DNA of 64,000 nt. It comes from Halorussus ruber. GTDB lineage: Archaea > Halobacteriota > Halobacteria > Halobacteriales > Haladaptataceae. Position 1 is the stretch's first letter; every line of letters starts with the position of its first letter. The position numbers and the translations under genes are program-made. Location: positions 124,001 to 188,000 of the forward strand of contig NZ_SBIT01000010.1 in the NCBI RefSeq assembly GCF_004765785.1, in the 5' to 3' direction. Shown here in pieces: positions 10,661 to 56,918 of this stretch. The notes beneath the pieces were generated by a model. The model did not search any database. It was not told where the DNA came from and saw only the letters and a program-made list of their open reading frames with translations.

Positions 10661-10705
10661 GCAATACGTAGTGGGTTTCTAACCCACCTGTTGATCGGTT
10701 ATATT

Positions 10706-13461: not shown

Positions 13462-14240
13462 GCCGGAACGACCACCCGATTCTGACGGCCGCGGGAGTCC
13501 TCGCGGTCGCCGTGGGCCTGCTGTTCGTCTTCGTCCCCGGACTCGCCAGCGCCATCGGCACCGGCTACGCCGCGGTCACCATGGTCGGCCTGCTGGCGCT
13601 GGTGCAGGCGATTCGGGTCGTGCGCTCCCGGCAGGCCACCGACTTGGAAGCCACCGAGACGCCCGACGTGGAGACGGTCGAGTCGATGCCCACGCCCGGC
13701 GACGAGTTCGACGAGACGGTCGCCGAAATCCGGTCGGGGCCGCGCCGGGTCCTCATCCGCGAGCGGGCCGACCTCCGCGAGGCGCTGGAGGAGGCCGCGC
13801 TGACCGCCGTCGCCGACCGGGAGAACTGCTCGCGCGAGCAGGCCGCCGACCTCCTCGACGCCGGGACGTGGACCGACGACGCTCACGCCGCGGCCTTCCT
13901 CGGCGGGGCAGACGCCCCCTCGCCGCCCCTCCTCGACCGAGTGAAAATCGCCGCAAGCGGCGAGTCGCCCTTCCAGTTCCGGATTCGCCGGACCGCCGAC
14001 GCGGTCGCCCGGACCGCCGATGTCGTGGACGACACGAACGACACAGACGACGAGGACGGAGGAATCGCCGGAAACGGAATCGGAGAGAGCGCGACCGACT
14101 CTGGTCGGGTCGAGAGCCACGGGACGAACGCCGAGGCCACCGACCGGGGCGACGACGCGGACCGAGGCGACGACGCAGACCGAGGCGACGACGCAGACCG
14201 AGGCGACGACGCGGACCGGACGACGGAGGTCGAAGCATGA
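13458..14240 (+). CDS. Membrane protein of the MoxR/DUF58 module with DRGDDA tail repeats
   Basis: 260 aa. The start ATG at 13458 overlaps the preceding stop, and the frame gives two N-terminal membrane helices (residues about 8-28 and 33-50). A cytoplasmic acidic domain of about 150 residues follows, then a C-terminal tail holding four tandem DRGDDA units. Homologues are known to me only as haloarchaeal proteins of unknown function that travel with DUF58 genes. The next gene overlaps by four bases. The tail is low-complexity and likely disordered. Confidence 0.7.
   Translation: MSRNDHPILTAAGVLAVAVGLLFVFVPGLASAIGTGYAAVTMVGLLALVQAIRVVRSRQATDLEATETPDVETVESMPTPGDEFDETVAEIRSGPRRVLIRERADLREALEEAALTAVADRENCSREQAADLLDAGTWTDDAHAAAFLGGADAPSPPLLDRVKIAASGESPFQFRIRRTADAVARTADVVDDTNDTDDEDGGIAGNGIGESATDSGRVESHGTNAEATDRGDDADRGDDADRGDDADRGDDADRTTEVEA
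14142..14213 (+). repeat. Four tandem 18-bp units encoding DRGDDA
   Basis: Four consecutive in-frame 18-base copies, nearly identical in DNA with only third-position changes, encode the acidic tail of the protein ending at 14240. This suggests recent slippage expansion. Confidence 0.85.
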
Positions 14241-15514
14241 AGTCGATTCGGGAGACTAATCGCTGGCGCGGCGTCAGCGCGGTCGCGCTGCTCGCGGGGT
14301 CGCTCGGCGTCCTGTTCAGTCGGCCGCTGGTCCTGCTGTCGGGCGTCGTCGGCGTCGCGTTCGCGGCCTACGCCCGGACCGCAGGGACGCCCGAACCCCG
14401 ACTCGACGTGACCCGGACCATCAGCGACGACGAACCCCTGCCGGGCGACGAGGTGGAGGTCCGACTCACCGTCGAGAACGTCGGCGATTCGACGCTCGCT
14501 GACCTCCGAATCGTTGACGGGGTGCCCGACGCCCTGCCCGTGACTGGCGGGTCCGCCCGGCTCGGAACCGCGCTTCGACCGGGGAAGACGGCCAGCCTGA
14601 CCTACACCGTCGAGGCCGAGCGCGGGGAACACGAGTTCGACCCCGTGATTGCGATTACCAGGGACTTCAGCGGCGCAATCGAAGTCGAGACCGAAGTCGA
14701 GGTCGAGACCGCAATCGAGTGCGTGCCGAAACTCGGGACGACCGTGGACGTGCCGCTCCGCGCTCAGACCACCCAGTACACCGGCCGGGTCACCACCGAC
14801 ACCGGCGGGTCGGGCGTCGAGTTCCACGCGACTCGGGAGTACCGACCGGGCGACCCCCTCTCGCGGGTGGACTGGAACCGGCTCGCTCGGACCGGCGAGT
14901 TGACCACCGTCGACTTCCGCGAGGAGCGCGCGGCCAGCGTGGTGGTCCTCGTGGACACCCGCGAGAAGGCGTATCTCGCCTCGGGCGACGACGAGCGCAA
15001 CGCGGTCCAGTTCGGCGTGGACGCCGCGGGCAAAATCGTCACGAAGCTGCTGGACGCGGGCGACCGAGTCGGTCTGGCCTCGCTCGGCCCCGAATCCTGC
15101 TGGCTCGCCCCCGGCGCTGGCCACGACCATCAGGCCCGCGCTCGGAACCTGCTGGCGACCCATCCCGCGTTCTCGCCGGTCCCCTCCGAGGAGATGTTCT
15201 ACCCGACGACTCGGCTCAAGCAGATTCGCAAGCGACTCCCGGCCTCCTCGCAAGTACTCTTCGTCACGCCGCTGTGCGACGACTTCGGCCCGGAGGTCGC
15301 CCGGCGACTCGACGCCGAGGGCCACCTCGTGACGGTGGTGAGTCCGGACCTGACCGCGACCGCGACCTCGGGTCAGCGATTCGCCCGGACCCGGCGCAAA
15401 CACCGGGTCTCGAAGCTCAGGCAGGCCGGAATCAGGGTCGTGGACTGGGACACCGACGAGACCTTCGGCGTCGCGCTGGCTCGGATGGCCCGCGTCACGG
15501 GGGGTCCGGCGTGA
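14237..15514 (+). CDS. DUF58 domain protein
   Basis: 425 aa. Two N-terminal membrane helices (about 13-50) are followed by an immunoglobulin-like region carrying LPGDEVEVRLTVENVGDSTL. Then comes the DUF58 hallmark EYRPGDPLSRVDWNRLARTGEL and, after about 15 residues, VVVLVDTRE, the start of a vWA-like fold. DUF58 proteins work with MoxR AAA ATPases, thought to be chaperones that load metal or cofactors or mature vWA-type partners. The start overlaps the previous gene by four bases and the stop overlaps the next. Confidence 0.88.
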   Translation: MKSIRETNRWRGVSAVALLAGSLGVLFSRPLVLLSGVVGVAFAAYARTAGTPEPRLDVTRTISDDEPLPGDEVEVRLTVENVGDSTLADLRIVDGVPDALPVTGGSARLGTALRPGKTASLTYTVEAERGEHEFDPVIAITRDFSGAIEVETEVEVETAIECVPKLGTTVDVPLRAQTTQYTGRVTTDTGGSGVEFHATREYRPGDPLSRVDWNRLARTGELTTVDFREERAASVVVLVDTREKAYLASGDDERNAVQFGVDAAGKIVTKLLDAGDRVGLASLGPESCWLAPGAGHDHQARARNLLATHPAFSPVPSEEMFYPTTRLKQIRKRLPASSQVLFVTPLCDDFGPEVARRLDAEGHLVTVVSPDLTATATSGQRFARTRRKHRVSKLRQAGIRVVDWDTDETFGVALARMARVTGGPA

Positions 15515-39225: not shown

Positions 39226-40050
39226 TCACCCGTACAACTCGGCGTGGGCCTCGCAGAACTCCGGTTCGCGCAACTGGGCCTCGACCACGCCCGGCTGTCG
39301 ATGCGGGTTCGAGAGCCGACAGCCCGACTCCTCGCAGAAGCCCTCGCCGGTCCGCCAGCAGTGGACCGCTTGCAGGACGTAGCCCTTCAGGGCCTCGGTC
39401 GTCCGGGGGTCCGACTCGACCAGAAACTCACCCTCGACTTCGTTTTCGAGGACCTCGCGGGGCGGCGCGTCGCCGGAGAGCATGGCGTGCTTCTGTTTTG
39501 CTTTATAATACTGCTCGGGCTTGGCGGGCGCTTCGGAGAGGCCCGGCACCGAGACCAGCGCGGGCTGGCCGAGGACGTTGACGCGCTTGTGCCACCGACC
39601 GTCGTGGTCACCCCACGTGCCGATAGCCCGGTCCAGCAGCGCGACGTGGAGGTGGTCGAGGTCGCGCTCGCTCTCGGGAATCGCTGCATTCAGCGCGCGC
39701 TGGACCGCAACGCCGTCGTAGAGGACGCCGCCCTCGCGCTCGGGGTGGTCGAGGGCGCGCTCCTCGTACCGGACGATGCCGAGCATCGTGTTGCCCGTCT
39801 CGCGCTCGTAGGGCGAGAGGACGCGGGCCTCGGCGAACTGCTCGGCGAGGTCGTCGGTTCGATGCTCGTCCAAAAACCGGTCGCGGACCGCGACCTCGAT
39901 GTCCTCCTCGTCGTTGCTCTCGCCGAGGAGGTCGCGGAGCCAGTCCGCGATTTCGTCGGCGTCCGCGACGGTGGTCGGCGTCTCGGACTCGCAGTCCGAG
40001 GCTCGTCGAGCTTCGCTCGACGGCGCGCGATACAGCGTGACCTTGGTCAT
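39226..40050 (-). CDS. Haloarchaeal protein of unknown function with C-terminal Cys/His cluster
   Basis: 274 aa from the ATG at 40050 (MTKVTLYRAPSSEARRAS). The upstream frame overlaps thi4 and is not used. It has an acidic N-terminal region, a middle alpha/beta part (GVLYDGVAVQRALNAAIPESERDLDHLHVALLDRAIGTWGDHDGRWHKRV, in segments) and a C-terminal cluster AVHCWRTGEGFCEESGCRLSN plus EFCEAHAELYG, which could bind zinc or an iron-sulphur cluster. The DHLHVALLDRAIGTW stretch recalls metal-dependent peptidase-like archaeal proteins, but the family is not certain. Confidence 0.65.
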   Translation of the reverse strand: MTKVTLYRAPSSEARRASDCESETPTTVADADEIADWLRDLLGESNDEEDIEVAVRDRFLDEHRTDDLAEQFAEARVLSPYERETGNTMLGIVRYEERALDHPEREGGVLYDGVAVQRALNAAIPESERDLDHLHVALLDRAIGTWGDHDGRWHKRVNVLGQPALVSVPGLSEAPAKPEQYYKAKQKHAMLSGDAPPREVLENEVEGEFLVESDPRTTEALKGYVLQAVHCWRTGEGFCEESGCRLSNPHRQPGVVEAQLREPEFCEAHAELYG

Positions 40051-40067
40051 GTCTGACTGGATGGTCC

Positions 40068-41123
<1,056 letters not shown>

Positions 41124-41140
41124 TCAACTTGGTGTTGGAC

Positions 41141-41150
41141 CTAATTATCT
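41141..41150 (+). promoter_or_regulatory. Candidate TATA box of the lanthipeptide precursor gene
   Basis: CTAATTATCT lies 41 bases before the ATG at 41191 in an AT-rich stretch, giving a probable 5' leader of about 15 bases. An overlapping short frame MLSTTMW (41164-41187) sits between and may affect translation. Confidence 0.35.
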
Positions 41151-41190
41151 AGTGAGAAGAGTTATGTTATCAACTACCATGTGGTAATGT

Positions 41191-41343
41191 ATGTCGGTGC
41201 TTGATACTGACAACGCGGCAGAATCGGCAAAGCAATCGTACGACGCGGAGTTCGACGCGGTAGACACGGGGTCGCGCGACTCGCCGGACGGCATGAAGGG
41301 CGAGGAGTGCGCGTGGTCCTGCGCCAGTTCGACGCTGTGCTAG
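41191..41343 (+). CDS. lanA: Class II lanthipeptide precursor peptide (LanA)
   Basis: 50 aa. A 39-residue acidic leader (MSVLDTDNAAESAKQ, FDAVDTGSRDSPDGMKGEE) is followed by a short C-terminal core CAWSCASSTLC with three Cys and four Ser/Thr, exactly the residues that LanM enzymes dehydrate and join into (methyl)lanthionine rings. It lies 157 bases upstream of lanM on the same strand. No double-Gly cleavage site is seen; removal near Glu-Glu/Cys or Gly-Glu would be needed. The core would allow at most three rings. Evidence is context plus composition; no known class II precursor is matched over its full length. Confidence 0.75.
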   Translation: MSVLDTDNAAESAKQSYDAEFDAVDTGSRDSPDGMKGEECAWSCASSTLC

Positions 41344-41462
41344 CAGGCTGAACCGGCGCAATTCTCGGTCGGCGCGTCCGCGGGTCGGCGATAGAACCTC
41401 GGACACGCCTGATTTACTTCCGTCACTGACCGACCAGAGAGTGACGACAGTCGATGTGACTC

Positions 41463-41476
41463 GCTGACTCGTCAGC
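41463..41476 (+). other. Perfect inverted repeat GCTGAC-TC-GTCAGC before lanM
   Basis: A six-base perfect stem with a two-base centre lies 25 bases before the lanM start, inside the lanA-lanM gap. It could be a regulator site or an RNA hairpin that sets the precursor to enzyme ratio. Confidence 0.35.
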
Positions 41477-41500
41477 ACCGACACCGACAACGCACCAGAG

Positions 41501-44500
41501 ATGCCACGACTACTCACCCGACAGGAACGGCGAGAGGTCGCCGGGCGCGCCCGGACCCTCCACGAACGGTTGGACGGACCGCCGAACGAACCGGGCGACG
41601 ACTCGCCCGACGGAGACCGACTGCTCGAAGCGTGGAGCGACGTCTTCCCGGACGAGCAATCGTTCGCCGACCGCCTCGCCCACGCCGGACTGTCCGAGGC
41701 CGAGGTCCGCGAGCGAGCGGCGGCGACTCGCTGGCCCGCCGACGAACCGCTTCCGGACTGGCTCGCCGAACTCGAGTCGCTCCTCGGCCACGTCGTCGCC
41801 GCCGAGTTCGGCGACGACTACCCCTTCGACGTCCCCGACGAGACGCCGTTCGGCGACCTCCTCGCGCCGGTCGCGGAGTACGCTCACGAGCGACTGGCCG
41901 ATTCGCTGTCTGCGGGCGTCTCGAAGAACGCGCTCGGGACGACCGACACGCTCGGCGCGACGGACGCGCTGGACCCGGCGGTCGAGTGGCTGTTCGACCG
42001 CCTCGAACTCCTGACCGTGCGCGTCCTCTACGTCGAGTTCCAGAGCTACCTCGACTCGCGCAGTCCCGAACTGGTCGAGGCCGACCCCGAGGAGTTCGCC
42101 GACCCGCCGACCGAGAACTACCGGGCGTTCGTCGAGGCCATGCTCGACGGCGGCGTCACGAACCTCTGTCTGGAGTACCCGGTCCTCGCGCGCCGACTGA
42201 CGCTGGTCGTCGGCCAGTGGGTCGCCGCCGTGACGGAACTGTGCCAGCGACTCGACCGGGACCGCTCGGCGCTGGCCTCGCGCTTCGACGTGGACGGGTC
42301 GGTGACCGCGCTCCGACCGCTCGCCGACGACACCCACGCCGGGGGTCGCGCGCCGGTCCGGGTCGAGTTCGAGTCCGGGTCCGCAATCTACAAGCCCAGA
42401 GACGTGGGCGGCGGAGCGAGCTTCTACACCGTCCTCGACCGATTGGACGAGCAGCTCGAAACTCCGTCCTTCCGGACGCCGAGTTTTCTGCGCCGCGAGG
42501 AGTACGGGTGGATGGAACCGGTTTCGTACGCCGACCCCGAGGACGAGGCCGCGCTCCGGCGCTACTACGAGCGCGCCGGGGTGCTGTTGGGACTGGGCTA
42601 CGCGCTCGGTCTCGGCGACTGCCAGTTCGAGAACGTAATCGCCGCCGGGGAGCAGCCGACCGTCGTGGACGGCGAGACCGTCTTCACGCCCGAAATCGGC
42701 CCCGGCGCGTCGCTGTTCTCGGAGGGAATCAGCCGGACCGTCTTCGAGTCCGTGCTGAGTACCGCGTTGCTCCCCTACTCGTCGGGGGACGCGGACACCG
42801 ACCGGCAGGTGAACATCGCCGGGTTCGGCGAGGTCAGCGGCCAACAGACGCTCTCGGGCCGGACGCGCCCGACCATCGAGGCGGCCAACACCGACGTGAT
42901 GACGGTCGCGCCGGAGTCGCCCACGGTGGACGGGAGCCACAACACGCCGACCCTCGACGGCGAGGACCGACCGCCGGGCGACTACGCCGAGGCAATCTGT
43001 GCGGGGTTCGAGCAGACCTACGAGGCGATTCGCCGACTCCACGACGAGGGCCGGTTCTTCTCGGAAACCGCCGACGAGGAGTTACTCGACGGCGTTGAGA
43101 CGCGGGTCATCTTCCGGCCGACGAACGTCTACCACGCCATCCTCCGGTCGAGCGTGGCGCGCGACCCGCTTCGGGACGGGGCGTGGCTCACCGTCGAGAT
43201 GGACGAACTGGCCTTCCCCTTCTTCGACGGGTGGACCGACTCGAAGGACCTCTGGCCGCTCTGTGGGGCCGAGCGGCGCGCGCTCCGGCGGTTCGACGTG
43301 CCGCGAATCGCCTCGACGCCGGACGGCGAGACCGCCTTCCACGACGGAGAGGAGTTGGACCTCTCGCTGGCGTCCTCGGGCTACGAGCGCGCTCGCCGCC
43401 GGGTGGCGTCGTTCGACGCGACCGACCGGGAGCGCCAGACGTGGATGATTCGCCGGGCGCTGACGACCGCCGACGACGAGCGACCGCCCGCCGAACCGGC
43501 GTCCGTGACCGACGACCGACTCCGGCGCGAGGCGGTCGAGTCGTTCGACGGCGTCATCGAGGCCGTCACCGGCGCGCCGGTCGAAGACTGGATGGTGATG
43601 GCGGGGACCGACGCCGACCTCACTCTGAACCCGGCAGACGAGTCGATGTATCTCGGTCGGAGCGGAGTCGCGCTCACCGCGGCGGCGCTCCACGAGACGA
43701 CCGGCGAGTCGCGCTACCGGCGGTTCACCGCCGACCTGCTCGGCCCGGTGGCCGACGAAATCGAGGCGGGCGTCGAGGGCGGCGGGTCGTCGTTCTCGCT
43801 CGGGGGCACGATGGGCGTCGGGTCGGTCATCTACGCCCTCTCGGTGGTCGCGGACCTCCTCGGTGAGGCGCGCTACCGCCGACTGGCCGACGAGGCGGTC
43901 CGGACCGTGACCGACGACCGCATCGCGGCCGACGACGCCTTCGACGTGATGGACGGGAGCGCCGGGGCGATTCTCGGACTGCTGGCTCACTACGACCGGG
44001 GCGGCGACTCGGCGGCGCTCGACCGCGCCGTCGCCTGCGGGGACCGACTCCTCGACGGGCGCGTCTCGGTCGGCGGCCACCGCGTCTGGGAGACCAACGA
44101 CGAGACGCCGCTGACGGGGTTCTCCCACGGGTCGGCGGGCATCGCCTACGCGCTGGCCGAACTGGGGGCCGCGACCGGCGAGTCGCGCTACGTCGAGGCG
44201 GTCCGCGAGGCGCTCGCGTTCGAGGAGGCCCTCTACGACCCCGACAGGTCCAACTGGAAGCACGGGTGGGCCTCCGACCGGTTCATGGACCGGTGGTGTC
44301 ACGGTCGGTCGGGCATCGCGCTGGCCCGGATGGGCATCGCCGACGCGCTCGGCGAGGAGATACTCCCGGCCCGGCGCGAGTCGGCGCTGTCGGCGACGGT
44401 CGAGTCCGACCCGAAGGGCGTGGACGACCTCTGCTGTGGCAACCTCGGCCGAGTCGAGGCGTTGCTGGAGGCGGCCCGCCGGGGCGACCGACCGCAGTCC

Positions 44501-44683
44501 GACGCGGCCGAACTGGCGGGTCGGTGCCTCGCGCGGACGGACCGCGACGGGACGCTCGCACTCCGCGGGCGGACGTGGGTCGGCCCCAATCCGGGGTTCT
44601 ACAAGGGCCTCTCCGGGGCGGCATACACCCTCCTGCGGGTCCGAGACCCCGAGCGACTCCCGTGTGCGCTGTTGTTCGAATAA
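41501..44683 (+). CDS. lanM: Class II lanthipeptide synthetase LanM
   Basis: 1060 aa. The N-terminal kinase-like dehydratase (DUF4135) carries SAIYKPRDVGGGASFYTVL near residue 295, RRYYERAGVLLGLGYALGLGDCQFENVIAAGEQPTVVDGETVFTP near 350-400 (the usual DxHxEN appears as DCQFEN) and VIFRPTNVYHAILRSS near 535. The C-terminal LanC cyclase has HG in GFSHGSAGIAYALAEL (near 873), zinc ligands in WCHGRSGIALARM (near 932) and CCGNLGRVEALLEAAR (near 978). It phosphorylates and eliminates Ser/Thr of the precursor, then adds Cys thiols. No LanT transporter-protease or immunity gene is beside it. Acidic composition shows adaptation to the host. Confidence 0.95.
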   Translation: MPRLLTRQERREVAGRARTLHERLDGPPNEPGDDSPDGDRLLEAWSDVFPDEQSFADRLAHAGLSEAEVRERAAATRWPADEPLPDWLAELESLLGHVVAAEFGDDYPFDVPDETPFGDLLAPVAEYAHERLADSLSAGVSKNALGTTDTLGATDALDPAVEWLFDRLELLTVRVLYVEFQSYLDSRSPELVEADPEEFADPPTENYRAFVEAMLDGGVTNLCLEYPVLARRLTLVVGQWVAAVTELCQRLDRDRSALASRFDVDGSVTALRPLADDTHAGGRAPVRVEFESGSAIYKPRDVGGGASFYTVLDRLDEQLETPSFRTPSFLRREEYGWMEPVSYADPEDEAALRRYYERAGVLLGLGYALGLGDCQFENVIAAGEQPTVVDGETVFTPEIGPGASLFSEGISRTVFESVLSTALLPYSSGDADTDRQVNIAGFGEVSGQQTLSGRTRPTIEAANTDVMTVAPESPTVDGSHNTPTLDGEDRPPGDYAEAICAGFEQTYEAIRRLHDEGRFFSETADEELLDGVETRVIFRPTNVYHAILRSSVARDPLRDGAWLTVEMDELAFPFFDGWTDSKDLWPLCGAERRALRRFDVPRIASTPDGETAFHDGEELDLSLASSGYERARRRVASFDATDRERQTWMIRRALTTADDERPPAEPASVTDDRLRREAVESFDGVIEAVTGAPVEDWMVMAGTDADLTLNPADESMYLGRSGVALTAAALHETTGESRYRRFTADLLGPVADEIEAGVEGGGSSFSLGGTMGVGSVIYALSVVADLLGEARYRRLADEAVRTVTDDRIAADDAFDVMDGSAGAILGLLAHYDRGGDSAALDRAVACGDRLLDGRVSVGGHRVWETNDETPLTGFSHGSAGIAYALAELGAATGESRYVEAVREALAFEEALYDPDRSNWKHGWASDRFMDRWCHGRSGIALARMGIADALGEEILPARRESALSATVESDPKGVDDLCCGNLGRVEALLEAARRGDRPQSDAAELAGRCLARTDRDGTLALRGRTWVGPNPGFYKGLSGAAYTLLRVRDPERLPCALLFE

Positions 44684-44791
44684 CCACTTGCGACCACTTT
44701 GACGGCGATTTTCCGGCGCAGAATCGACGGGGTCCGTGATACCGCGACCCTCGGAAGTGTTATCCGTGGACGGGTCCTGTGTATAATTGTA

Positions 44792-44986
44792 ATGGCAAAC
44801 GGTACTGTTGATTTCTTCAACGACACTGGCGGCTACGGTTTCATCTCGACTGACGACGCGGACGACGACGTGTTCTTCCACATGGAGGACGTTGGCGGCC
44901 CCGACCTCGAAGAGGGAACTGACATCGAATTCGACATCGAAGACGCCCCCAAGGGCCCCCGCGCGACGAACGTCGTCCGCGCGTAA
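44792..44986 (+). CDS. cspA: Cold-shock domain protein
   Basis: 64 aa from the ATG at 44792. RNP1-like GGYGFISTDD and RNP2-like DVFFHMEDV on a five-strand OB fold, with the acidic surface usual in haloarchaeal Csp (EEGTDIEFDIEDAPKGPRATNVV). Binds single-stranded RNA/DNA as a chaperone. It follows lanM by 108 bases and probably has its own promoter (AT-rich sequence before the start). Confidence 0.94.
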   Translation: MANGTVDFFNDTGGYGFISTDDADDDVFFHMEDVGGPDLEEGTDIEFDIEDAPKGPRATNVVRA

Positions 44987-45160
44987 GTCGAAAACTACTC
45001 GCTTTCGAGCGACACTTTAACTTCGCTTTTTACGACGCTACTTCCCGCCGAGCGCAAGCGCCGGAATCGCAATACTGAGCGAAAGAATTCAGATTAATTT
45101 TCAAACACAATAAAATATTGCTAAAAGTTGTCTATAGAATTCTTTTCCGCCCTGCCGAAG

Positions 45161-45910
45161 TCAGTCCAACTCGCCCTGCCGAATCGCCCGCTCCGCCTCC
45201 TCCAGCGCCGCCTCGCGGTCGAACGCCGCGACGATTGCCTCCAACTCCTCGCGCGAGGAGTCCTGCTCTCGCAACTCCCGGGCGTGTCTCGTCACGTTCG
45301 GCACCGCTCGCACGATGTTGTCCACGATCGGAATCGCGGCGGTCTGGGCCGACCGGGACATCGGATTCAGGTCCACGACGATTTCGGTCTTGCCCATCTC
45401 GGCCAGCGCCTCCGCGCGGTCGCCGTCCTCCAGCGGGACCACAACCACGTCGGCGTCGTAGATTCCGTCCTCGTCGACCTTGGCGCGCTCGTGTTCCAAC
45501 CCCGGAATCCGGGCGTCGGCCGCGAGGCCCTTCACGTCCGTCGCGCCGTGTTCCCGCAGGTGGTCGGCGATGGCCGCCATTCGCTCCTCGGTCCGGTTGA
45601 ACAGGTTCACTTCGATATCGGCGTCCACGGCCTCGGCCAACTCGACCATCTCGGCGGGGACGAGCGCGGCGACGTTGCCGTTGACCGAGAGGACGGGGTG
45701 GTCGGCCAGAAGCAGTTGCGCGGCAGCCGCCCTCTCTGCTCGCTCGGCGCTCGGAGTCGTCTGCTCCCCGAGGAGGTAGTCGTAGGCCTCGCCGCGGCCC
45801 TGTGCGATGAGGCCCTGCTTGCTGGTGATACCCTTCTCGACGCCCTCCTCGATTCGGTGGCGGGTCCGAAGCGACTGGGCTCGGGGGTGGTCGTCGGGAA
45901 TCTCGGTCAT
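45161..45910 (-). CDS. 4-phosphopantoate--beta-alanine ligase (archaeal phosphopantothenate synthetase)
   Basis: 249 aa. The opening IPDDHPRAQSLRTRHRIEEGVEKGITSKQGLIAQGRGEAYDYLLGE (seen as the segments HPRAQSLRTRHRIEEG and SKQGLIAQGRGEAYDYL) and the closing VDLNPMSRSAQTAAIPIVDNIVRA belong to this archaea-specific family. With pantoate kinase, encoded just upstream on the same strand, it replaces the bacterial PanC/PanK order in CoA synthesis. Confidence 0.93.
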   Translation of the reverse strand: MTEIPDDHPRAQSLRTRHRIEEGVEKGITSKQGLIAQGRGEAYDYLLGEQTTPSAERAERAAAAQLLLADHPVLSVNGNVAALVPAEMVELAEAVDADIEVNLFNRTEERMAAIADHLREHGATDVKGLAADARIPGLEHERAKVDEDGIYDADVVVVPLEDGDRAEALAEMGKTEIVVDLNPMSRSAQTAAIPIVDNIVRAVPNVTRHARELREQDSSREELEAIVAAFDREAALEEAERAIRQGELD

Positions 45911-45940
45911 GGGGGTTACTCCGCGGGGGGCCGGGAAAAA

Positions 45941-46777
45941 TCAGTCCATCTCCAGCGTCGCGCCCGCCGAGTGGACCTCGCAGGTCTCGGCGTCGTAGCC
46001 CGCCCGCGACAGGCCGTTGCCGAGCGCGAAGACGGTCTCGCCGAGCATCGCCATCGCGGCCTCGCCGCCCGCCTCGTCAACGTCTTCGAGGACCGCCTCG
46101 ACTTCGGGCGTCAGCAAGTCGGCCTCGCGGGCGAACTTCCGCGAGGAGTCCATCAGCGTCGATAAGGTCGGCTCCTCTACGAGGCGGACCAGCATGTCCA
46201 CGCCGACCTCCGAGAGGCGGTCGGTGTTGCCCGCGAGGACCTCCTCGGTCGAGCGCTCGCCCAGCGTCAGATACTCCACGCGGCTCTGGGCAGCCACCCC
46301 GTCCATCCGGCCGTACTCCGGCGCGCCGGGGTCGAGTCGAATCGGGACGCCGCCGCGGGCCTGTGCCACCACGTCGCCGAGTCCGGTCCCGGCGTCGACC
46401 TCCGCGGCGTGGGCGATGGTCACGAGTTCGTTCTCCGAGCGCCCGCAGTCGAAGGTCCGGTTGGCCGCCAAGGCGGTCCCGAGCGCGGCGGCACCCGAGA
46501 CGCCGAAGCCAGCGCCCACGGGCAGGTCGGTCGTGGCGGTCACTCGCGCCTCGACGCCGAGGTCCGAAAGCACTCGGGTCACCGCCTCGACGGCGGCGGG
46601 TTCGTCGTTCAACTGCATCGAGGTCTCGGCGGCGGGTTCGACCTCGACGGTCACGCCCTCCGAGAGGGTCAGGCCCGCGCCGCGCGAACCGGCCTGCTCG
46701 GGGTCGTCGGCCTCGTGGACGCTGAAGAAGCCGGTGACGTGGCCCGGCACGAACGCCCGCGACGAGTCGTCGGTCAT
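45941..46777 (-). CDS. Pantoate kinase (GHMP family)
   Basis: 278 aa. GHMP kinase motifs: FVPGHVTGFFSVH at the N-terminus, the ATP loop LPVGAGFGVSGAAALGTALAAN near residue 95, and the third motif near the C-terminus (YDAETCEVHSAGATLEMD). It phosphorylates pantoate, the archaeal-specific CoA step. Placed 30 bases upstream of the phosphopantothenate synthetase gene, forming a two-gene CoA operon. Confidence 0.93.
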   Translation of the reverse strand: MTDDSSRAFVPGHVTGFFSVHEADDPEQAGSRGAGLTLSEGVTVEVEPAAETSMQLNDEPAAVEAVTRVLSDLGVEARVTATTDLPVGAGFGVSGAAALGTALAANRTFDCGRSENELVTIAHAAEVDAGTGLGDVVAQARGGVPIRLDPGAPEYGRMDGVAAQSRVEYLTLGERSTEEVLAGNTDRLSEVGVDMLVRLVEEPTLSTLMDSSRKFAREADLLTPEVEAVLEDVDEAGGEAAMAMLGETVFALGNGLSRAGYDAETCEVHSAGATLEMD

Positions 46778-48443: not shown

Positions 48444-49070
48444 TCACCCTTTCCGGGTCGTCAGTCCCGCCGCCACCGCCTCGATGAGCACGTCTCGGAC
48501 CGCCCGATAGAACTCGTCGTCGCCGAAGTCGTCCTTCCGGTAGGCGACGAACTTCACGACGCCCATCGCGGCCGCGAGGACCTCGGGGTCGCCCTCGCGG
48601 AGTCGGCCCTCGGCCTGCCAGCGCTCGACGTAGGGCACGACGTAGCTCAGCGACTCGGCGCGCTCGGCTTCCAACTCCTCGTCGCTGAACTGGGCCATCA
48701 GGCGCGAGCGGTCGTCGTCCGCGACCAGTCGGCGGACCAGCGGGTTAGTCTCGATTTCTTCACAGAGGAGGGTGAGGAAGGCGACGATGGCCTCCTCGGG
48801 GTCGAGTTCTTCTTTACCATCCCCGACACGCTCGAAGGACTCGGCGAGGAGGTCGGTGGCGATTCGTTCGCCCTCCTCGCGGAGAATCTCGAAGTAGAGC
48901 TGTTCTTTCGAGTCGTAGAACCGGTAGAAGGTCCCGTTGGCGATGCCCGCGGGAGTAGTGAGGTCGCCGATGGTGGTCTTGTCGAGGCCGTAGCGCGCGA
49001 ACAGGTCCCGGCCGGTCTCTCGAAGTTGTCGGCGGATGCGCTCGCGCTCGGCGTCGTCGAACCCGGCCAT
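48444..49070 (-). CDS. TetR family transcriptional regulator
   Basis: 208 aa from the ATG at 49070. [46 protein letters not shown] (segments [20 protein letters not shown]) plus an all-helical ligand domain. It overlaps the stop of the permease gene, so it is the third gene of the ABC exporter operon and probably represses it. A candidate operator is the CGTGAA..TTCACG inverted pair at 50818-50852. Confidence 0.88.
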
Positions 49071-49867
49071 CAGATGTCCTTCCTCCGGAACCACGCGGCG
49101 CTGACCGCGACCAGCGCGACTGTCGCCGCGAGGAGGACGACCGCACCCGACCAGTCGTACTCGCCGGAGACGAGAATCGCGGTCGGGTCGTAGTACCGGG
49201 TCGGGCTAATCGCGCCCAGCCAGTTCAGGTCGGCCGACTCGCTGACCGTATCCAGCAGGAACAGGCCGAAGATGGCCCCGAGACCGGCGCGCTTGGCCGC
49301 GTCGGACTCGGAGAACGCGACCGACAGCAGGAGACCGATTGCTCCGCAGGCGAGCAGGTAGGGCACGGACAGCAGGTGGACCACCGCGAGGTCGGCCAGC
49401 GAGATGGACTCGCCGATGGCGAGGACGGTGGCGAAGACTGCTATCCCCACCACGAGGTTGACCGCGAGGACGACCGGGACGAGCGAGGCGAACTTCTCGA
49501 CCACGACCCGCGCTCGGGAGACCGGCGCGGCCAGCAACACGTCCATCCGACCGCGCTCCACGTCGCCAGCAATCAGGCCGCCCGAGAGGTAGGCGGCGTA
49601 GATGCCGAGCAGGAGCAACCAGAAGAACTGGTAGAGTTCGACCGCCAGAAAGCCCTCGATGGTAGTGATGGAGAAGGTCCCGGACGCGCCGAACGCCGCC
49701 TGCACCGCGGGCGGAAGACTCTCCATGTAGGCGTCCAAGTCCGCCCCCGAGTTCGAAATCGAGGGGAACAGCGCGACGAACAGCAGGGACATCGCGGCCA
49801 GCAGGACGGACAGGACGAGCGCGCCCCGAATCCGGCGCTCGGACTCGTAGGTGGCGATGTCAAGCAT
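49070..49867 (-). CDS. ABC-2 type exporter, permease subunit
   Basis: 265 aa with six hydrophobic helices. RRIRGALVLSVLLAAMSLLFVALFPS at the start, GDVERGRMDVLLAAPVSRARVVVEKFA as the cytoplasmic loop, and a final helix AVVLLAATVALVAVSAAWF. The start overlaps the ATPase stop by eight bases and the end overlaps the TetR start by one base. It forms the membrane part of an exporter likely involved in drug or metabolite efflux. Confidence 0.88.
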   Translation of the reverse strand: MLDIATYESERRIRGALVLSVLLAAMSLLFVALFPSISNSGADLDAYMESLPPAVQAAFGASGTFSITTIEGFLAVELYQFFWLLLLGIYAAYLSGGLIAGDVERGRMDVLLAAPVSRARVVVEKFASLVPVVLAVNLVVGIAVFATVLAIGESISLADLAVVHLLSVPYLLACGAIGLLLSVAFSESDAAKRAGLGAIFGLFLLDTVSESADLNWLGAISPTRYYDPTAILVSGEYDWSGAVVLLAATVALVAVSAAWFRRKDI

Positions 49868-50801
49868 CGGACTCGCCTCCGGCGGTCGCCGCCGCGGTCT
49901 CGGGCGGCGGGGACTCGCTCTCCGGCCCGTCGTCGTAGAACTTCATGAACACGTCCTCGAGCGGGGCCTCCTCGATTTCGAGGTCCCGAACGCGGTAGTT
50001 CCGGAGGTGGTCGAGCAGGTCGTCGTACTCGCCGGTGAACATGAACGAGGCGTCGCCGTCGCCCGCGTCGAGGTCGTGGACGCCAGCGAGGGCGAAGTCC
50101 GCCGGGTCGAGCGTCTCCTCGACGCTGACGTGGACGCGCTTGCCGCTCCGGTCGAGCAACTCCTCGACGCCCTCCATCGCCACGAGTTCGCCGTTCCGGA
50201 TGATGCCCACGCGGTCGCAGACCTTCCGGACCTCGCTCAGGACGTGGCTGGAGAAGAAGAAGGTGGTCCCGCGGGCCTGCTCGTCCTCGATGAACTCGTA
50301 GAGCCGTTCCTGCATCAGGGGGTCCAACCCGGAGGTCGGTTCGTCCATAATCACGAGGTCCGGGTCGTGCATGAACGAAAGCACCAGCGCCAGCTTCTGC
50401 TTGTTGCCCGTCGAGTACTCGCCGATTTCGCGGTCGATTGGCGGGTCGAACGCTTCGAGGAGTTCGTCGGACCGCTCGTCGCCCTTGAGCGCGGCGTGGT
50501 AGCGAATCAGCCGTCGCCCGGTGGTGCCCTCGTCGAGGCCGGGGTTGCTCGGCAGGTAGCCGACCCGCCGCTTGGCCTCGATGAGCGCCGCCTCGTCGGT
50601 CACGTCCCGGCCGAGGAGGGTCGCCGACCCGCCGGTCGGGGAGATGAACCCCAGCAGGGTCCGGATGGCCGTGGTCTTGCCCGCGCCGTTGGGGCCGAGG
50701 AAGCCGAAGACCTCGCCCTCTCGCACCGTCAGCGAGAGGTCCTCGACTCCTCGGGTGTCCCCGTAGTACTTCGTCAGGCCGGTCGTCTCGATTGCGCTCA
50801 T
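49860..50801 (-). CDS. ABC-2 type exporter, ATP-binding subunit
   Basis: 313 aa. Walker A FLGPNGAGKTTAIRTLLG near residue 38, signature EYSTGNKQKLALVLSF, Walker B DLVIMDEPTSGLDPLMQ and H-loop FFSSHVLSEVRKV. First gene of the ABC-permease-TetR operon. The C-terminal 70 residues hold an acidic domain and an Ala/Pro-rich tail. Confidence 0.93.
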   Translation of the reverse strand: MSAIETTGLTKYYGDTRGVEDLSLTVREGEVFGFLGPNGAGKTTAIRTLLGFISPTGGSATLLGRDVTDEAALIEAKRRVGYLPSNPGLDEGTTGRRLIRYHAALKGDERSDELLEAFDPPIDREIGEYSTGNKQKLALVLSFMHDPDLVIMDEPTSGLDPLMQERLYEFIEDEQARGTTFFFSSHVLSEVRKVCDRVGIIRNGELVAMEGVEELLDRSGKRVHVSVEETLDPADFALAGVHDLDAGDGDASFMFTGEYDDLLDHLRNYRVRDLEIEEAPLEDVFMKFYDDGPESESPPPETAAATAGGESDA

Positions 50802-51326: not shown

Positions 51327-52052
51327 TCAGACCGATTCGGGCGCGGCCGCTTTCGCGTCCTGTGCGGCCTCGACGGTCTCGCGCACCGCCTCGACGCCCT
51401 CGTCGTGGACGAGGTCGCCGACGATGATGGTGTCGGCGCGCTCGGCCATCGTCCGGGCCGAGTCGTAGTCGTGGATGCCGCCGCCGTAGAATAGCGTCGC
51501 CTCCTCCAGCGCGTCCGCGGCGGCCTCGACCGCGTCGGGGTCGCCGTACATCCCCGAATACTCGACGTAGACGATTTCCTGGCCGTACATCTGCTCGGCG
51601 ACCTCGGCGTAGGCCGCCACGTCCTCGGGCGACTGGTCGCAGTCGGCGCTGGTGAGTTCGGCCACGCTGGCGTCGGGGTTCATGATGATGTAGGCCTCGG
51701 TGGTGGTCCGGTCCCAGTTCACGTCGCTCGATTTGACCCACTCCTTGTGGAATCCGGTGGCCCACGCGATGTCCCCGGCGTTGAGGACGACCGGCACGAG
51801 GTAGCCGTCGAGGTCGTCGTCGTCCACCACGACCGCGGGGTTGCTCGGTTCCTGATACAGCGGCACGTCGTACTTCGCGCAGGCGTCGATGACCCGCTGC
51901 ATCTTCTCTTGGGTCATGTCGAGCGTCCCGCCGATTTCGAGCGCGTCGGTGCCGGTCTCGCAAACGTCCTCGAAGGTCTCGCCCTCCGCGAGCGTCTTGT
52001 CCGGGTCCAACTTGACGATGTGGTCCCAGTCGGTCCAGGGTGAGGTAGTCAT
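51327..52052 (-). CDS. Geranylgeranylglyceryl phosphate synthase
   Basis: 241 aa from the ATG at 52052 ([19 protein letters not shown]). GGGP synthase/PcrB motifs: KLDPDKTL near the start, [34 protein letters not shown] and [33 protein letters not shown] (as segments). It joins sn-glycerol-1-phosphate with geranylgeranyl diphosphate, the first ether bond of archaeal lipids. Full length. Confidence 0.95.
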
Positions 52053-52202
52053 TATGCGTGTAAACCCGAGGATGCGGTTTAACATCTTCGAATCCACCTT
52101 TTATTACGGCTGCGAGTGCCAGCGGCGCTCATTCTCCGATGAACTGGGCCGAAAGCCACGGCCATGGAAACAAATACGGTTCTGTATGCACAATGTATAC
52201 GC

Positions 52203-52400
52203 ATGAGTACCAGTATCCGGGTCTCCAACGAGACGAAGGACAAACTCTCCCGGTTGAAACGGGACGATGAGACGTGGGACGAGTTCCTGAACCGACTGAC
52301 GAACGAGGAGGAGCCTATCAATATCGGCGCGTGGTCGGACGACGTGGCTGACCGTGCCCGTGAAGCCGTCGAAAGTTCCCGAGAGAGTTTCGAGCGATGA
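52203..52400 (+). CDS. vapB: VapB-type antitoxin
   Basis: 65 aa from the ATG at 52203. A ribbon-helix-helix-like opening STSIRVSNETKDKLSRLKRDDETWDEFLNRLT is followed by an acidic flexible tail that would wrap the toxin. It overlaps the PIN-domain gene by four bases, the classic order of a type II toxin-antitoxin pair. Confidence 0.85.
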   Translation: MSTSIRVSNETKDKLSRLKRDDETWDEFLNRLTNEEEPINIGAWSDDVADRAREAVESSRESFER

Positions 52401-52789
52401 CCTTTCTCGATTCGTCGGTTATCATCGACATGCTCAGCGGGGTTGATTCGACTGTCGAGTTCGTTCAGGAGCAGGGGGAACCCTACTTCACCTCCTCTCT
52501 CTGCGTCTTCGAAATCCTGGACGGGGTACTCGGGAGTGGTTCGACCGACGTCGTTGCGGCCCGCCAAGACTTCGATGGGGTCCACGCTCTCGACCTCACC
52601 GACGACATCGCTCTGGAGGCCGCACGTCTTCAGGACCAACTCCTCGACGACGGCCAGCGAATGCCCACCCGCGACCTACTCATCGCCGCGACCGCTCGTT
52701 CGACAGGCGACCATCTCGTCGTCGCTGACAGCGATTTCGAAACGGCCATCCTTCAGTCTCACATTCAAGTGACTAACCTTTCGAAGTGA
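52397..52789 (+). CDS. vapC: VapC-type PIN-domain toxin
   Basis: 130 aa. The PIN acidic residues are seen at Asp5 (FLDSSVIID), Glu39 (CVFEILDG), Asp93 (PTRDLLIAATA) and Asp111/113 (VADSDFE). VapC toxins are ribonucleases, often cutting tRNA or rRNA. The catalytic set is intact, so the pair may be active. It marks the left edge of the accessory stretch 52.2-54.4 kb. Confidence 0.88.
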   Translation: MTFLDSSVIIDMLSGVDSTVEFVQEQGEPYFTSSLCVFEILDGVLGSGSTDVVAARQDFDGVHALDLTDDIALEAARLQDQLLDDGQRMPTRDLLIAATARSTGDHLVVADSDFETAILQSHIQVTNLSK

Positions 52790-52900
52790 TGGTGTTTTCA
52801 GTCGGGGGAGGGTAGTCTGCTGGACTATGGCAGTCCGGAGCTACATGTAGAGGCCAGCAGTTCACGAACATATTTGTAATCCCGTTTTGTTGGGGCTAAT

Positions 52901-53668
52901 ATGAGTGAAAAGGAGTTTATTGAGTTCATCCCCGGTATTATATCTTCTACAACCGAAGACCGTCATGGTCACGAAATCTCGAAATCAACTTTGGAGAAAT
53001 GGGCGAAGGAACTTCGGGACGAAAAAAAGACTATTCCATTCACTTTCAATCATTCCTCTGAACCAGTAGGTGAATGGTTAGATGCTCAGGTATTAAGTCA
53101 TGGAGATTCTGCTTTTCTTGCTGGCATGGTAGGTATTTATTCGGGTAATCAAGATGCAGTAGAGAGACTAAATGATGGAGAGTTTGGTGGCTTAAGTATT
53201 CAGGGTACTACATATCGGAATATCACAGAGAACCAGTTTACTTCAGCAGATGAAGTAATATCGCTATCAGTAGAACCTTCATGGTCAGAATCTATTGGCG
53301 GTATAATCGACCAACAGGGGGCAGGTTATCGCTTTGAAATTCAGAAGTCAGAAGTCGGTCTTGCGTTATTTGAGATTGTAATTGGGAATATTGATGGCAT
53401 TATTCAGGCACTCATTATGATTCATGCCTACTGTACGTATCAGAGAAAAGTTTTTGAGGAGGAGAATCAAACCGAGGAGTCATCTACTCGGGCAAATATT
53501 CAACTTCCTGATGGCACAGAAGTTAACCTTGTAGAGAATAACGCAAAGGAGGTCATAGTGCAGTTAGAAGAGTCGGGTTATGAAGTCCAAATTAATCCTG
53601 AAGAAGCAGAACAGCTCTCCGACACGTATCAAAAGGCCATCAAAGAAAAAGACGCTGAAGACGATTAA
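52901..53668 (+). CDS. Prohead-protease-like protein (S78-like) with C-terminal extension
   Basis: 255 aa, AT-rich. Residues 5-125 resemble HK97-type prohead proteases: IPGIISSTTEDRHGHEISKSTL, then candidate catalytic His in PFTFNHSSEPVGEW, and candidate Ser in EFGGLSIQGTTYR. Residues 160-190 are hydrophobic (LALFEIVIGNIDGIIQALIMIHAY). The last 60 residues form a separate small domain (IQLPDGTEVNLVENNAKEVIVQLEESGYEVQ). No capsid, portal or terminase gene is near, so it is an orphan: a phage remnant or a recruited defence protease. Its AT content suggests recent acquisition. Confidence 0.55.
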   Translation: MSEKEFIEFIPGIISSTTEDRHGHEISKSTLEKWAKELRDEKKTIPFTFNHSSEPVGEWLDAQVLSHGDSAFLAGMVGIYSGNQDAVERLNDGEFGGLSIQGTTYRNITENQFTSADEVISLSVEPSWSESIGGIIDQQGAGYRFEIQKSEVGLALFEIVIGNIDGIIQALIMIHAYCTYQRKVFEEENQTEESSTRANIQLPDGTEVNLVENNAKEVIVQLEESGYEVQINPEEAEQLSDTYQKAIKEKDAEDD

Positions 53669-53671
53669 ACT

Positions 53672-53872
53672 TCACATCCTCCAAACCCAAAGCCGGTAGA
53701 TATTCTCTCGATACAACTCCTCGATGTCCTCGATGCCCGCGTCCGAGAGCTTCTCGGCTGTCTTCGCGCCGATGCCGTCGAGCGATTCGGGGTCGCTTCC
53801 CGAGTCGCTCTCGCGGGCCTTATGCGGCAATACGCCGCAATTCACCGCGAGTGAACGATACTGTCGGCTCAC
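53672..53872 (-). pseudogene. Displaced fragment of a topA 3' end
   Basis: The segment KARESDSGSDPESLDGIGAKTAEKLSDAGIEDIEEL (about 53716-53820) is a near copy of the C-terminal helix-hairpin-helix of the intact topA 3' end (54515-54610), about 80% alike in DNA. It is cut off on both sides from any topoisomerase frame. The open frame joined to it gives MSRQYRSLAVNCGVLPH at the start and an unrelated last 12 residues. It is a duplicated or displaced end, the mark of an insertion at topA. Confidence 0.7.
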
Positions 53873-54114
53873 TTCTCTTCATCGTCTGTCCGAGCGAGAC
53901 CTTCCCAGATGGCCATGAAACTAGACAGAATCACTACTGTTTGTTTAATCGGCCGAATGTCTATCCCGGCAAGTAACAGACAGAGACAGACGACCGTAAC
54001 CGCTACCAAACCTATCAGGCGTCGCTGATTTCGTTTGCAGAGACGGCTCCAGAGGTGAATTGCAAGCGCGATTGCGAGGCGATACAGGGCGTAGGCCGGT
54101 CCGGGTGTATACAT
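53869..54114 (-). CDS. Small membrane protein inside the topA insertion
   Basis: 81 aa with two hydrophobic helices (LYRLAIALAIHLW and LIGLVAVTVVCLCLLLAGI) linked by a basic turn, and a hydrophobic stretch near the C-terminus. No family recognised. Its stop overlaps the start of the displaced topA fragment. It could be the cargo of the small insertion between the two topA ends. Could also be chance. Confidence 0.4.
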   Translation of the reverse strand: MYTPGPAYALYRLAIALAIHLWSRLCKRNQRRLIGLVAVTVVCLCLLLAGIDIRPIKQTVVILSSFMAIWEGLARTDDEEK

Positions 54115-54416
54115 TTCTCGTGGGGGTCAGTTGGACCCACTTCGCGAGGTCCAGACGTAGCTGTCGAATCATTGCGATGAAGCAAGTGGATTCAGACAGC
54201 ATACCGGGACCCAAAGGGTGAGAGGGCACGGGGGAAGCCTTGACTCGTTTGCTCGTGTTACGGAGCCCCTCGTCCGGGTGGACTGGCCATCGCCTCTCGT
54301 CCGCAGGATGCTGACCTACTCACGCGGGAACGCCAGAACGGGGTTTCATACGAATTACACTGTCGCACTCATACATAAAACCTTCCCAGAAATCGACACG
54401 AATCAGGCGAAGGCTA
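54115..54416. other. Gene-poor stretch downstream of topA
   Basis: 302 bases between topA and the small membrane gene. Inverted GGGTC..GACCC pairs occur near 54129. The plus strand encodes LTYSRGNARTGFHTNYTVAL in an open frame that then runs into topA and is probably not expressed. No firm feature; likely remains of the inserted segment. Confidence 0.3.
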
Positions 54417-56918
54417 TCAGTCGGCTTTCGCCTTCCAGCCCCGAAGCCTATCCTCGCTCACGCCCTGCACCTGAGAGGCCACCGTCTCGACTTCGGCCTC
54501 CTTCAGGTCCTCGATGCTCTCGATACCGGCCTCAGAGAGCTTCTCGGCGGTCTTCGAGCCGATGCCGTCGAGCGTTTCGAGGTCGCTTCCGGACTCGCTC
54601 TCGCGGGCCTTGAACTCCCGGTAGTTGCAGATGGGACAGCCCAGTTCCCACGGGTCGTCGCCGCTGTGGATGACGAGTTCGGGCAGGTCGTGTTCCTCGC
54701 AGCGCTCGTCGGTGATTTCGATGTCGCCCCGGCGCGGGAGCGGGAGCGAGTAGTCACAGTCGGGGTAGCGAGTGCACCCGACCAGCCGCGAGCCGTTTTT
54801 GAGGTGCTTGATTGCCAGCTCGCCGCCCTCCTCCTCGCCGCACTCGGGACAGACCCCGATGACTTCGTCCTCTTCCTCGTCGGCCTCCTCGGCCTTGCAG
54901 AGTGGGCACCCGTGGACGAACGTCTGGCGGCCCGCCAGCATTTTGACGTGGCGTAGGTCGTGTTTCTCGCACGTCTCGTCCAAGATGAGGGGCTTGCCCG
55001 TGTTCGGGAGCGGCAGGGTGTACTCGCAGTCGGGGTAGCCGTCACACCCGACGAAGTACGAGCCGTTCCGGCTCTGGCGGACCAGCAGCTCGTGGTCCGA
55101 CTCGGGGCAGGGGCCGAGTTTCTTGTCTGCCTTCAGCGATTCTTGCAGGAGGTCGCCGACCTCCTCGCGGGAGTCGCGCAACTCGTCGAACACCTGCTGG
55201 AGGTACTCGCGGGACTCGTCGGCGACCTCGCTCAGGTCGGCCTCGCCCTCCGCGATGGCGGTCATGTCCTCTTCGAGTTCGGCGGTCATCTCCTCGCTGA
55301 CCACGAGGTCCGCGAACTTTTCGGCGGCCGTGACCACGGCCTTCGCCAACTGAGTCGGCCGCGGCGGGTCGCCCTCGACGTAGCCCCGGTCGTAGAGCTT
55401 CTCGACGGTATTGTGGCGGGTCGACTTCGTCCCGACCCCCATCTTCTCCATGGTCTCGATGAGCCGTGACTGGCCGTATCTGCGGGGCGGCTGGGTCTGC
55501 TTGTCCTCGATGCGGGCGTCGGTGACCGCCAACTCGTCGCCCTCTTCGACGTCGGGGACGTAGTTCTCGGAGGTGTTGAAGTAGGGGTAGACCGCGTGGT
55601 AGCCCTCTTCGAGGAGGCGCTTGCCGTTGGCCTTGAGCTTGTGTTCGTCCACGCCAGCGACGACTTTGAGGTGTTCCCACGTCGCCGAGTCGGCCACGGT
55701 GGCGAAGAACCGCCGGACGACCAACTCGTAGATCTCCCACTCGTCGTCCGAGAGGTCGCCCTTCGTCGGTACGTCCTCGGTCGGGTGAATCGGCGGGTGG
55801 TCGGTGGTCTCCTCGTCGCCCTCGGTGGGTTCGAGGTCGTCCAGTTCGAGCAGGTCGTCGGCGTCGTCGCCGAAGTGGTAGTTGCCCGAGAACGTATCGA
55901 GTAGCTCCTCGGGGTCCAAATCGTCGGGATAGACCGTGTTGTCGGTCCGGGGGTAAGTCATGTACCCCGCGGTGTAGAGGTCCTCGGCGATGCTCATGGC
56001 CTGCTGGGCCGAGTAGCCCAGACTCCCTGCCGCGCGGATGAACTGCGTGGTGTTGAACGGCGCGGGCGGGTCGTCGGTCCGAGTGCGCCGGGAGACGCGC
56101 TCGACCTCGGCCGCGCTCGCCGAATCGAGCGCCTCGAAGACGCCCTCTGCGGTCTCCTCGTCCCAGACGCGCTCGGCCTCGTTGTCGTCCTCGTCGCGGT
56201 AGAAGTACTGGGCCTCGAACTCCGCGGTCTCCTCGTCGGTGTCCTTCAGCAGGTCCGCGAACAGTTCCCAGTAGTCCTCGGGGTCGAAGGCCTCGATTTC
56301 GCGCTCGCGGTCCACGATGAGTTTGAGCGTCGGCGACTGCACCCGGCCGACCGAGATGAAGTCGTCGCCCAGCTGGCGGGCCGACAGCGAGAGGAATCGC
56401 GTGAGGGCCGCGCCCCAAATCAGGTCGATTTCCTGTCGGGCCTCGCCCGCCGCCGCGAGGTCGAAGTCCAACTCGTCGGGGTTCTCGAAGGCCTCGGTGA
56501 CCTCGTTTTCCGTGATGGAGGAGAACCGGACCCGGCGAATCGGCACGTCGTCGTTGACCTCGCGGACGAGTTCCCACGCCTCCTTGCCGATGAGTTCGCC
56601 CTCGCGGTCGTAGTCGGTCGCAATCGTCACTTGGTCGGCCTTCCGGGCCAGCACGCGCAGGGTGGAGACGATGTTCTCTTTCGTGGCCTTCTTCTCGATG
56701 GGTGCGTCGATGAGTTCGACCGGTTCCACGTCGCGCCAGTCGTTGTACTCGTCGGGGAAGTCCACGCCGACCACGTGGCCCGACAGGCCGATACACCGCC
56801 TGCCGCCCCACTTGTAGACGTTGACGCCGTTCTTTCGCTCGGCTTCGGCGGACTCGCCGCTCAGGATGTCGGCGATTCGACGGGCGGCGTTGTCCTTCTC
56901 GGTGATTATCAGTTCCAT
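54417..56918 (-). CDS. topA: DNA topoisomerase I (type IA)
   Basis: 833 aa. A TOPRIM domain opens the protein (ELIITEKDNAARRIADIL, ATDYDREGELIG). The active-site region AGYMTYPRTDNTVYPDDL holds the catalytic Tyr near residue 320. Three to four C-terminal zinc ribbons follow (CPESDHELLVR..CDGYPDC, CEKHDLRH..CPLC, CPECGEEEGG..CTRYPDC, CEEHDLPE..CPIC), and a final helix-hairpin-helix (LDGIGSKTAEKLSEAGIESIEDL). It relaxes negatively supercoiled DNA. A second copy of the last domain lies at 53716-53820. Confidence 0.96.
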   Translation of the reverse strand: MELIITEKDNAARRIADILSGESAEAERKNGVNVYKWGGRRCIGLSGHVVGVDFPDEYNDWRDVEPVELIDAPIEKKATKENIVSTLRVLARKADQVTIATDYDREGELIGKEAWELVREVNDDVPIRRVRFSSITENEVTEAFENPDELDFDLAAAGEARQEIDLIWGAALTRFLSLSARQLGDDFISVGRVQSPTLKLIVDREREIEAFDPEDYWELFADLLKDTDEETAEFEAQYFYRDEDDNEAERVWDEETAEGVFEALDSASAAEVERVSRRTRTDDPPAPFNTTQFIRAAGSLGYSAQQAMSIAEDLYTAGYMTYPRTDNTVYPDDLDPEELLDTFSGNYHFGDDADDLLELDDLEPTEGDEETTDHPPIHPTEDVPTKGDLSDDEWEIYELVVRRFFATVADSATWEHLKVVAGVDEHKLKANGKRLLEEGYHAVYPYFNTSENYVPDVEEGDELAVTDARIEDKQTQPPRRYGQSRLIETMEKMGVGTKSTRHNTVEKLYDRGYVEGDPPRPTQLAKAVVTAAEKFADLVVSEEMTAELEEDMTAIAEGEADLSEVADESREYLQQVFDELRDSREEVGDLLQESLKADKKLGPCPESDHELLVRQSRNGSYFVGCDGYPDCEYTLPLPNTGKPLILDETCEKHDLRHVKMLAGRQTFVHGCPLCKAEEADEEEDEVIGVCPECGEEEGGELAIKHLKNGSRLVGCTRYPDCDYSLPLPRRGDIEITDERCEEHDLPELVIHSGDDPWELGCPICNYREFKARESESGSDLETLDGIGSKTAEKLSEAGIESIEDLKEAEVETVASQVQGVSEDRLRGWKAKAD

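Follow-up and report, generated by a model that had tools for sequence, protein, structure and literature searches.

A putative class II lanthipeptide cassette between thi4 and a cold-shock gene in Halorussus ruber

Does a 50-aa open reading frame upstream of a class II lanthipeptide synthetase (LanM) gene encode that enzyme's substrate and, if so, what would a haloarchaeon make from it? The question was raised by an earlier note on the window (the whole 64,000-nucleotide stretch of Halorussus ruber DNA analysed here), which proposed a compact lanthipeptide locus from a peptide ending CAWSCASSTLC and a neighbouring LanM. Both reading frames are present, lanA lying 157 nt upstream of lanM (Table 1). 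The 11 C-terminal residues do contain three Cys and four Ser/Thr (three Ser, one Thr), and the precursor is acidic, with acidic residues outnumbering basic ones by 8. A class II lanthipeptide is favoured by the enzyme family, by the residues at catalytic positions, by a leader that recurs beside related LanMs, and by phylogenetic placement beside enzymes with published products. Our overall reading, to which we assign a probability of roughly 0.8, is that of an acquired two-gene cassette whose product would carry archalan-alpha-like rings, be exported in trans, and act as a narrow-spectrum anti-haloarchaeal peptide.

The locus adds another member to a natural-product family whose existence in haloarchaea has already been proven; it does not represent a new type of system. 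The earlier note regarded haloarchaeal examples as few, which the literature contradicts: class II lanthipeptides are well documented in this group, most abundantly in Halorussus (PMC10105419, PMC12144867, PMC10027976). A count on 2019 data gave 33 class II clusters in archaea (PMC7268733), and the published archaeal totals stand at 110 LanMs, 353 putative precursors and 24 products, again led by Halorussus (PMC12144867). The exact core string is absent from the open text of papers; the supplementary lists of PMC10105419 and PMC12144867 may hold the precursor. What the locus offers is a distinct core, which extends the short list of proven archaeal peptide natural products.

Table 1. Features discussed in the text (window positions, unless preceded by a locus handle)
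Feature	Position	Strand	Basis
thi4 (Thi4), flanking gene	40068-40994	-	
Inserted block, ~3.67 kb, with lanA and lanM	41042..44711	.	absent from thi4-csp intergenic site in congeners
Possible BRE/TATA-like element	41152..41171	+	by eye, ~20-40 nt before lanA, weak match
lanA, class II lanthipeptide precursor, 50 aa	41191..41343	+	ATG start, ends CAWSCASSTLC
Predicted core ECAWSCASSTLC	41305..41340	+	register match to archalan alpha core GCGFTCSPFSSW of L048/L049
lanM, class II lanthipeptide synthetase, 1060 aa	41501..44683	+	family searches, alignment, tree
Dehydratase domain (lipid-kinase-like, DUF4135)	42176..43306	+	Pfam; catalytic columns aligned
Gln375 codon, replacing conserved kinase His (CylM His349)	42623..42625	+	alignment
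LanC-like cyclase domain	43631..44674	+	Pfam LANC_like
Cys933 codon, zinc ligand 1 (WCHG)	44297..44299	+	alignment
Cys978-Cys979 codons, zinc ligands 2 and 3 (CCG motif)	44432..44437	+	alignment
Cold-shock gene (csp), flanking gene	44792-44986	+	
Archalan-alpha-type neighbour genes	L048:6488-7630, 12744-15155; L049:2795-3973, 5569-7854		

The precursor gene and its leader

Searches of lanA against Pfam and NCBIfam gave no family match. LanM loci were therefore compared directly: gathered from the same family and order, plus named haloarchaeal genomes, they show that the precursors adjoining related LanMs have a common leader (MSVAI......K..YD.EF) and variable, Cys/Ser/Thr-rich ends. A leader profile built from 13 LanM-linked precursors of other genomes, with the window's lanA left out, has a single match at E<=10 in the whole 4.3 Mb genome, and that match is lanA (E=4e-4). 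Since the profile is independent of lanA, a chance reading frame is ruled out; the idea of several precursors in the same genome was likewise rejected, none other being found genome-wide. Used as a single-sequence query, lanA retrieved from a related genus a precursor linked to LanM (45% identity, E=7.9e-4), and the GC content of lanA by codon position (0.56/0.54/0.82) is gene-like. These results speak against the refuting case named in the earlier note, that related LanM genes have no conserved Cys/Ser/Thr-rich peptide beside them. No orthologous copy of the window's lanA was found.

The earlier note also suspected that such short precursors escape gene calling. This holds in part: precursor-like reading frames beside the LanM of Halocatena salina are missing from the PLSDB gene table (itself incomplete), while a homologous 59-aa precursor in Haloferax gibbonsii is annotated, as 'hypothetical protein'.

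In relatives, lanA is preceded by an A-rich stretch and a TTTAATAT element; the window's possible BRE/TATA-like element was seen by eye at equal spacing. Rfam gave no structured RNA match over 40000-46000, and a structured RNA in the lanA-lanM spacer was rejected (fold z = -1.57, not notable). A sigma-70 and terminator scan found nothing in sense orientation, its models being bacterial and not relevant to an archaeon.

The LanM enzyme and its clade

The lanM frame runs without a frameshift, and its product matches both expected Pfam families, DUF4135 (301 bits, residues 226-602) and LANC_like (168 bits, residues 711-1058), and the NCBIfam type 2 LanM model TIGR03897 (661 bits against a cut-off of 304). 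The nearest solved structures are LicM2 and CylM, and no other LanC-like match occurs in the 4.3 Mb genome. The claim that both motif sets are complete stands for the cyclase, where all three zinc ligands (C933, C978 and C979) are present, albeit as a Cys-Cys-Gly rather than a Cys-His-Gly site; CCG-type LanMs have previously been recorded in Halorussus (PMC10027976). It falls one residue short for the dehydratase. Measured against the published CylM positions (D252, H254, K274, D347, H349, N352, D364, R506 and T512; PMC4550811), eight of nine are retained, as D277, H279, K298, D373, N378, D390, R535 and T541. The exception lies in the kinase DxH motif, which here reads D373-C-Q375, with Gln375 equivalent to His349.

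This His is described as conserved in LanMs (PMC4550811). When 47 haloarchaeal LanMs are aligned, its column holds His in 27, Gln in 18, Ser in one and Thr in one; that is, 20 of the 47 depart from His, some of them adjoining precursors with published products. The remaining dehydratase columns are invariant, except that the T541 position is Ser in two enzymes. Gln is found in enzymes adjoining ciblan-type and LarA-like precursors, and Ser in the SalA-linked enzyme; the ciblan, larlan and sallan clusters all gave products in Haloferax volcanii (PMC12144867). CylM H349A is slow, yet reaches nearly full modification after long incubation (PMC4550811). Taken with the published products of clade enzymes carrying Gln or Ser, this indicates that Gln375 is probably tolerated. 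The change being common to clade members with published products, the role of the His in class II dehydratases becomes directly testable.

Phylogenetic analysis of 45 haloarchaeal LanMs places the window enzyme in a 20-member clade (SH-aLRT 99; a quick tree, internal order not resolved). Using published cores (PMC10105419, PMC12144867), we infer the published cluster to which several loci correspond. Archalan alpha precursors appear to adjoin four clade enzymes (L046, L048, L049 and L133), the core GCGFTCSPFSSW occurring beside L048 and L049. CTRYSF, as in SalA, is found in the precursor adjoining clade member L050; the Haloferax denitrificans precursor at L075 contains SKLPCCDTT, compatible with the published ring positions of ciblan A2; and the precursor at L141, with STCTY and CPTCDF, is LarA-like. 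One congener (G024) carries archalan alpha, archalan beta and SalA sequences as published for H. salinus YJ-37-H, and another (G020, locus L037) the pellan core STGCYISDKPVCI.

Two side observations concern other loci. In a sister genus, one LanM is accompanied by four precursors with one common leader and differing C-x-x-[S/T]-C cores (L047:6281-11089), which suggests a diversifying set for a single enzyme. At L035 (8162-11281, 11392-11565), L146 (5597-8899, 2533-2966) and L147 (5800-9042, 2652-3088), the LanMs keep all dehydratase residues and have lost all three cyclase zinc ligands. Among 44 loci scanned, these three alone have acidic-leader small reading frames with poly-Thr ends; five were found, three of them Cys-free (e.g., HLTTPTTVTTVTTTTVFL and VQLTTWTTVTTTTTTGTAD). 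The combination suggests dehydration-only LanMs producing Dhb-rich linear peptides, the novelty of which may exceed that of the lanA-lanM cassette.

The insertion site and partner functions

In 11 congeners, thi4 and csp lie on one stretch about 0.16-1.05 kb apart, with no lanA or LanM match between them. One of these sites (L113) aligns with window positions 40014-41041 and 44712-44990, the two aligned parts being only 84 nt apart there; this junction alignment marks ~3.67 kb as extra in the window. As the site is empty in all 11 congeners, lanA-lanM is read as a ~3.7 kb insertion, whose gene content is these two genes alone. Elsewhere in the window, two patches (10000-13000 and 52000-55000) have a GC content of about 0.48-0.54, against about 0.66, and are probably acquired DNA; the latter contains a PIN-domain protein gene (52397-52789) and a 255-aa reading frame (52901-53668).

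No transporter, protease or immunity gene lies inside the insert. The ABC-2 pair at 49070-50801 was considered as a lanthipeptide transporter and rejected: 17 of 18 genomes in the genus carry it, and the permease does not match lan-linked ones. Candidates occur on other contigs, namely (i) a sal-type ABC pair, unlinked, on contig C4 (permease 66% identical), and (ii) on a third contig, a sequence matching the matrixin-like lipoprotein found at archalan alpha loci (41%), its matched stretch interrupted by one stop codon. With no partner genes in the insert and these candidates elsewhere, export and leader removal would take place in trans. Among relatives, an ABC transporter pair adjoins the cluster at L047, at L050, and in Haloferax gibbonsii, Halocatena and Halobiforma; none was seen at the archalan alpha loci examined. 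At the archalan-alpha-type loci of two congeners (L048 and L049), a matrixin-like (Peptidase_M10) lipoprotein is encoded near lanM and is a candidate leader protease; a binding protein and a methyl-accepting chemoreceptor are encoded there too.

The predicted product, rival readings and known systems

If the pair is transcribed, LanM would bind the 50-aa precursor through its acidic leader (MS...K..YDAEF...) and phosphorylate Ser/Thr residues of the core, phosphate elimination then giving Dha and Dhb; its CCG-type zinc cyclase would add Cys thiols onto these, and unlinked proteins, in trans, would remove the leader and export the product. The predicted core, ECAWSCASSTLC, and the archalan alpha core, GCGFTCSPFSSW, are of equal length, and in both, positions 2 and 6 are Cys while 5 and 10 are Ser/Thr. 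The archalan alpha rings are proven as C2-T5 and C6-S10 (PMC10105419). Such a register is reached by 0.6% of random core permutations (frequency 0.006) and, as the comparison was made post hoc against one among the clade's several core types, counts as moderate evidence. From the shared register we predict the archalan alpha bicycle, with one further Cys at the C-terminus: most likely a Cys40-Ser43 lanthionine and a Cys44-Thr48 methyllanthionine. The motif C-x-x-[S/T]-C also occurs in precursors adjoining L047 and L081, although 14% of permutations give it somewhere. Cys50, at the position of archalan alpha's Trp/Phe, may be free, in a disulfide, or in a third ring with Ser46/Ser47. The ring-pattern and mass prediction is precise, and cheaply testable in the existing Haloferax volcanii expression system. 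Calculated [M+2H]2+ values are 630.738 for linear ECAWSCASSTLC, 612.728, 603.722 and 594.717 for its forms with two, three and four dehydrations, and 548.206 for CAWSCASSTLC dehydrated twice.

One rival reading concerns the third Cys. With three Cys and four Ser/Thr, the core could give a tricyclic product (Cys50 onto Dha46 or Dha47) or rings intertwined as in archalan beta or pellan; intertwined rings and rings between adjacent residues are both known among published haloarchaeal lanthipeptides, and core types differ widely within the LanM clade. This is a tentative alternative, since the first two Cys sit in exact archalan-alpha register and archalan gamma keeps two Cys as a disulfide, so that a thioether is not obligatory for an extra Cys. 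A more specific version—a mobile, self-contained lanA-lanM cassette encoding a tricyclic relative of archalan alpha, with Cys50 forming the third ring on Dha46/47, a Gln-kinase LanM, and export and proteolysis left to the host—appears unlikely. It is also unlikely that the cassette is decaying or silent, with a less efficient LanM (His to Gln), missing partner genes and no mature product. Gln375 and the bare insert are compatible with decay, and the published sallans, pellan and litlans went unseen in wild-type cultures (PMC12144867). Against this, Gln is shared by 18 of the 47 LanMs, including ciblan-type and LarA-like enzymes, and even the Ser-bearing SalA-linked enzyme belongs to a cluster with a published product; the other catalytic residues and the reading frame are intact, and archalan alpha loci likewise do without an ABC pair.

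The remaining rivals concern substrate and role. That the cognate substrate is another precursor, encoded elsewhere, and the 50-aa frame incidental, is highly improbable: CCG-type LanMs such as ProcM do act on genome-scattered precursors (PMC10027976), but the leader profile finds no second candidate at E<=10 genome-wide, and the lanA leader resembles those adjoining related LanMs. As to role, the product is most likely a narrow-spectrum anti-haloarchaeal peptide, by analogy with archalan alpha. A main role in controlling the motility or shape of the producing cells, instead of killing rivals, is a less likely alternative, despite the increased motility and archaellin expression conferred by the cib2 and pel clusters in Haloferax volcanii (PMC12144867), the chemoreceptor near archalan alpha loci, and the unchanged antagonism of Haloferax mediterranei after loss of its medM genes (PMC9953058); archalan alpha, the closest core type, is anti-haloarchaeal, and its motility drop arises via growth inhibition (PMC12144867).

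Among known systems, archalan alpha (aln-alpha, Halorussus salinus YJ-37-H) and its analogue medlan B share the LanM clade, the leader type, and a 12-residue register (C2, S/T5, C6, S/T10, aromatic at position 4) with the window locus. The window and archalan alpha cores are nevertheless identical at only two of twelve residues, both Cys, and the window core ends in an extra Cys where archalan alpha has Trp/Phe. Gene order differs too, lanA lying downstream of lanM at archalan alpha loci and upstream here; the window insert is adjoined by no matrixin-like lipoprotein, binding protein or chemoreceptor gene; and the kinase motif has Gln rather than the His of the archalan alpha LanM.

The sallan, ciblan and larlan clusters (PMC12144867) share the clade, the MSVAI..K..YD.EF-type leader and the compact lanA-lanM layout, and their kinase His is also altered (to Ser, Gln and Gln, respectively). 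Their cores are unrelated in sequence to the window core and, unlike the window insert, sal-type and Haloferax gibbonsii ciblan-type loci have an ABC pair adjoining lanM or lanA. ProcM-type LanMs have a three-Cys zinc site in common with the window enzyme, and differ in that the window leader is not of the Nif11 type and a single linked precursor takes the place of a scattered set.
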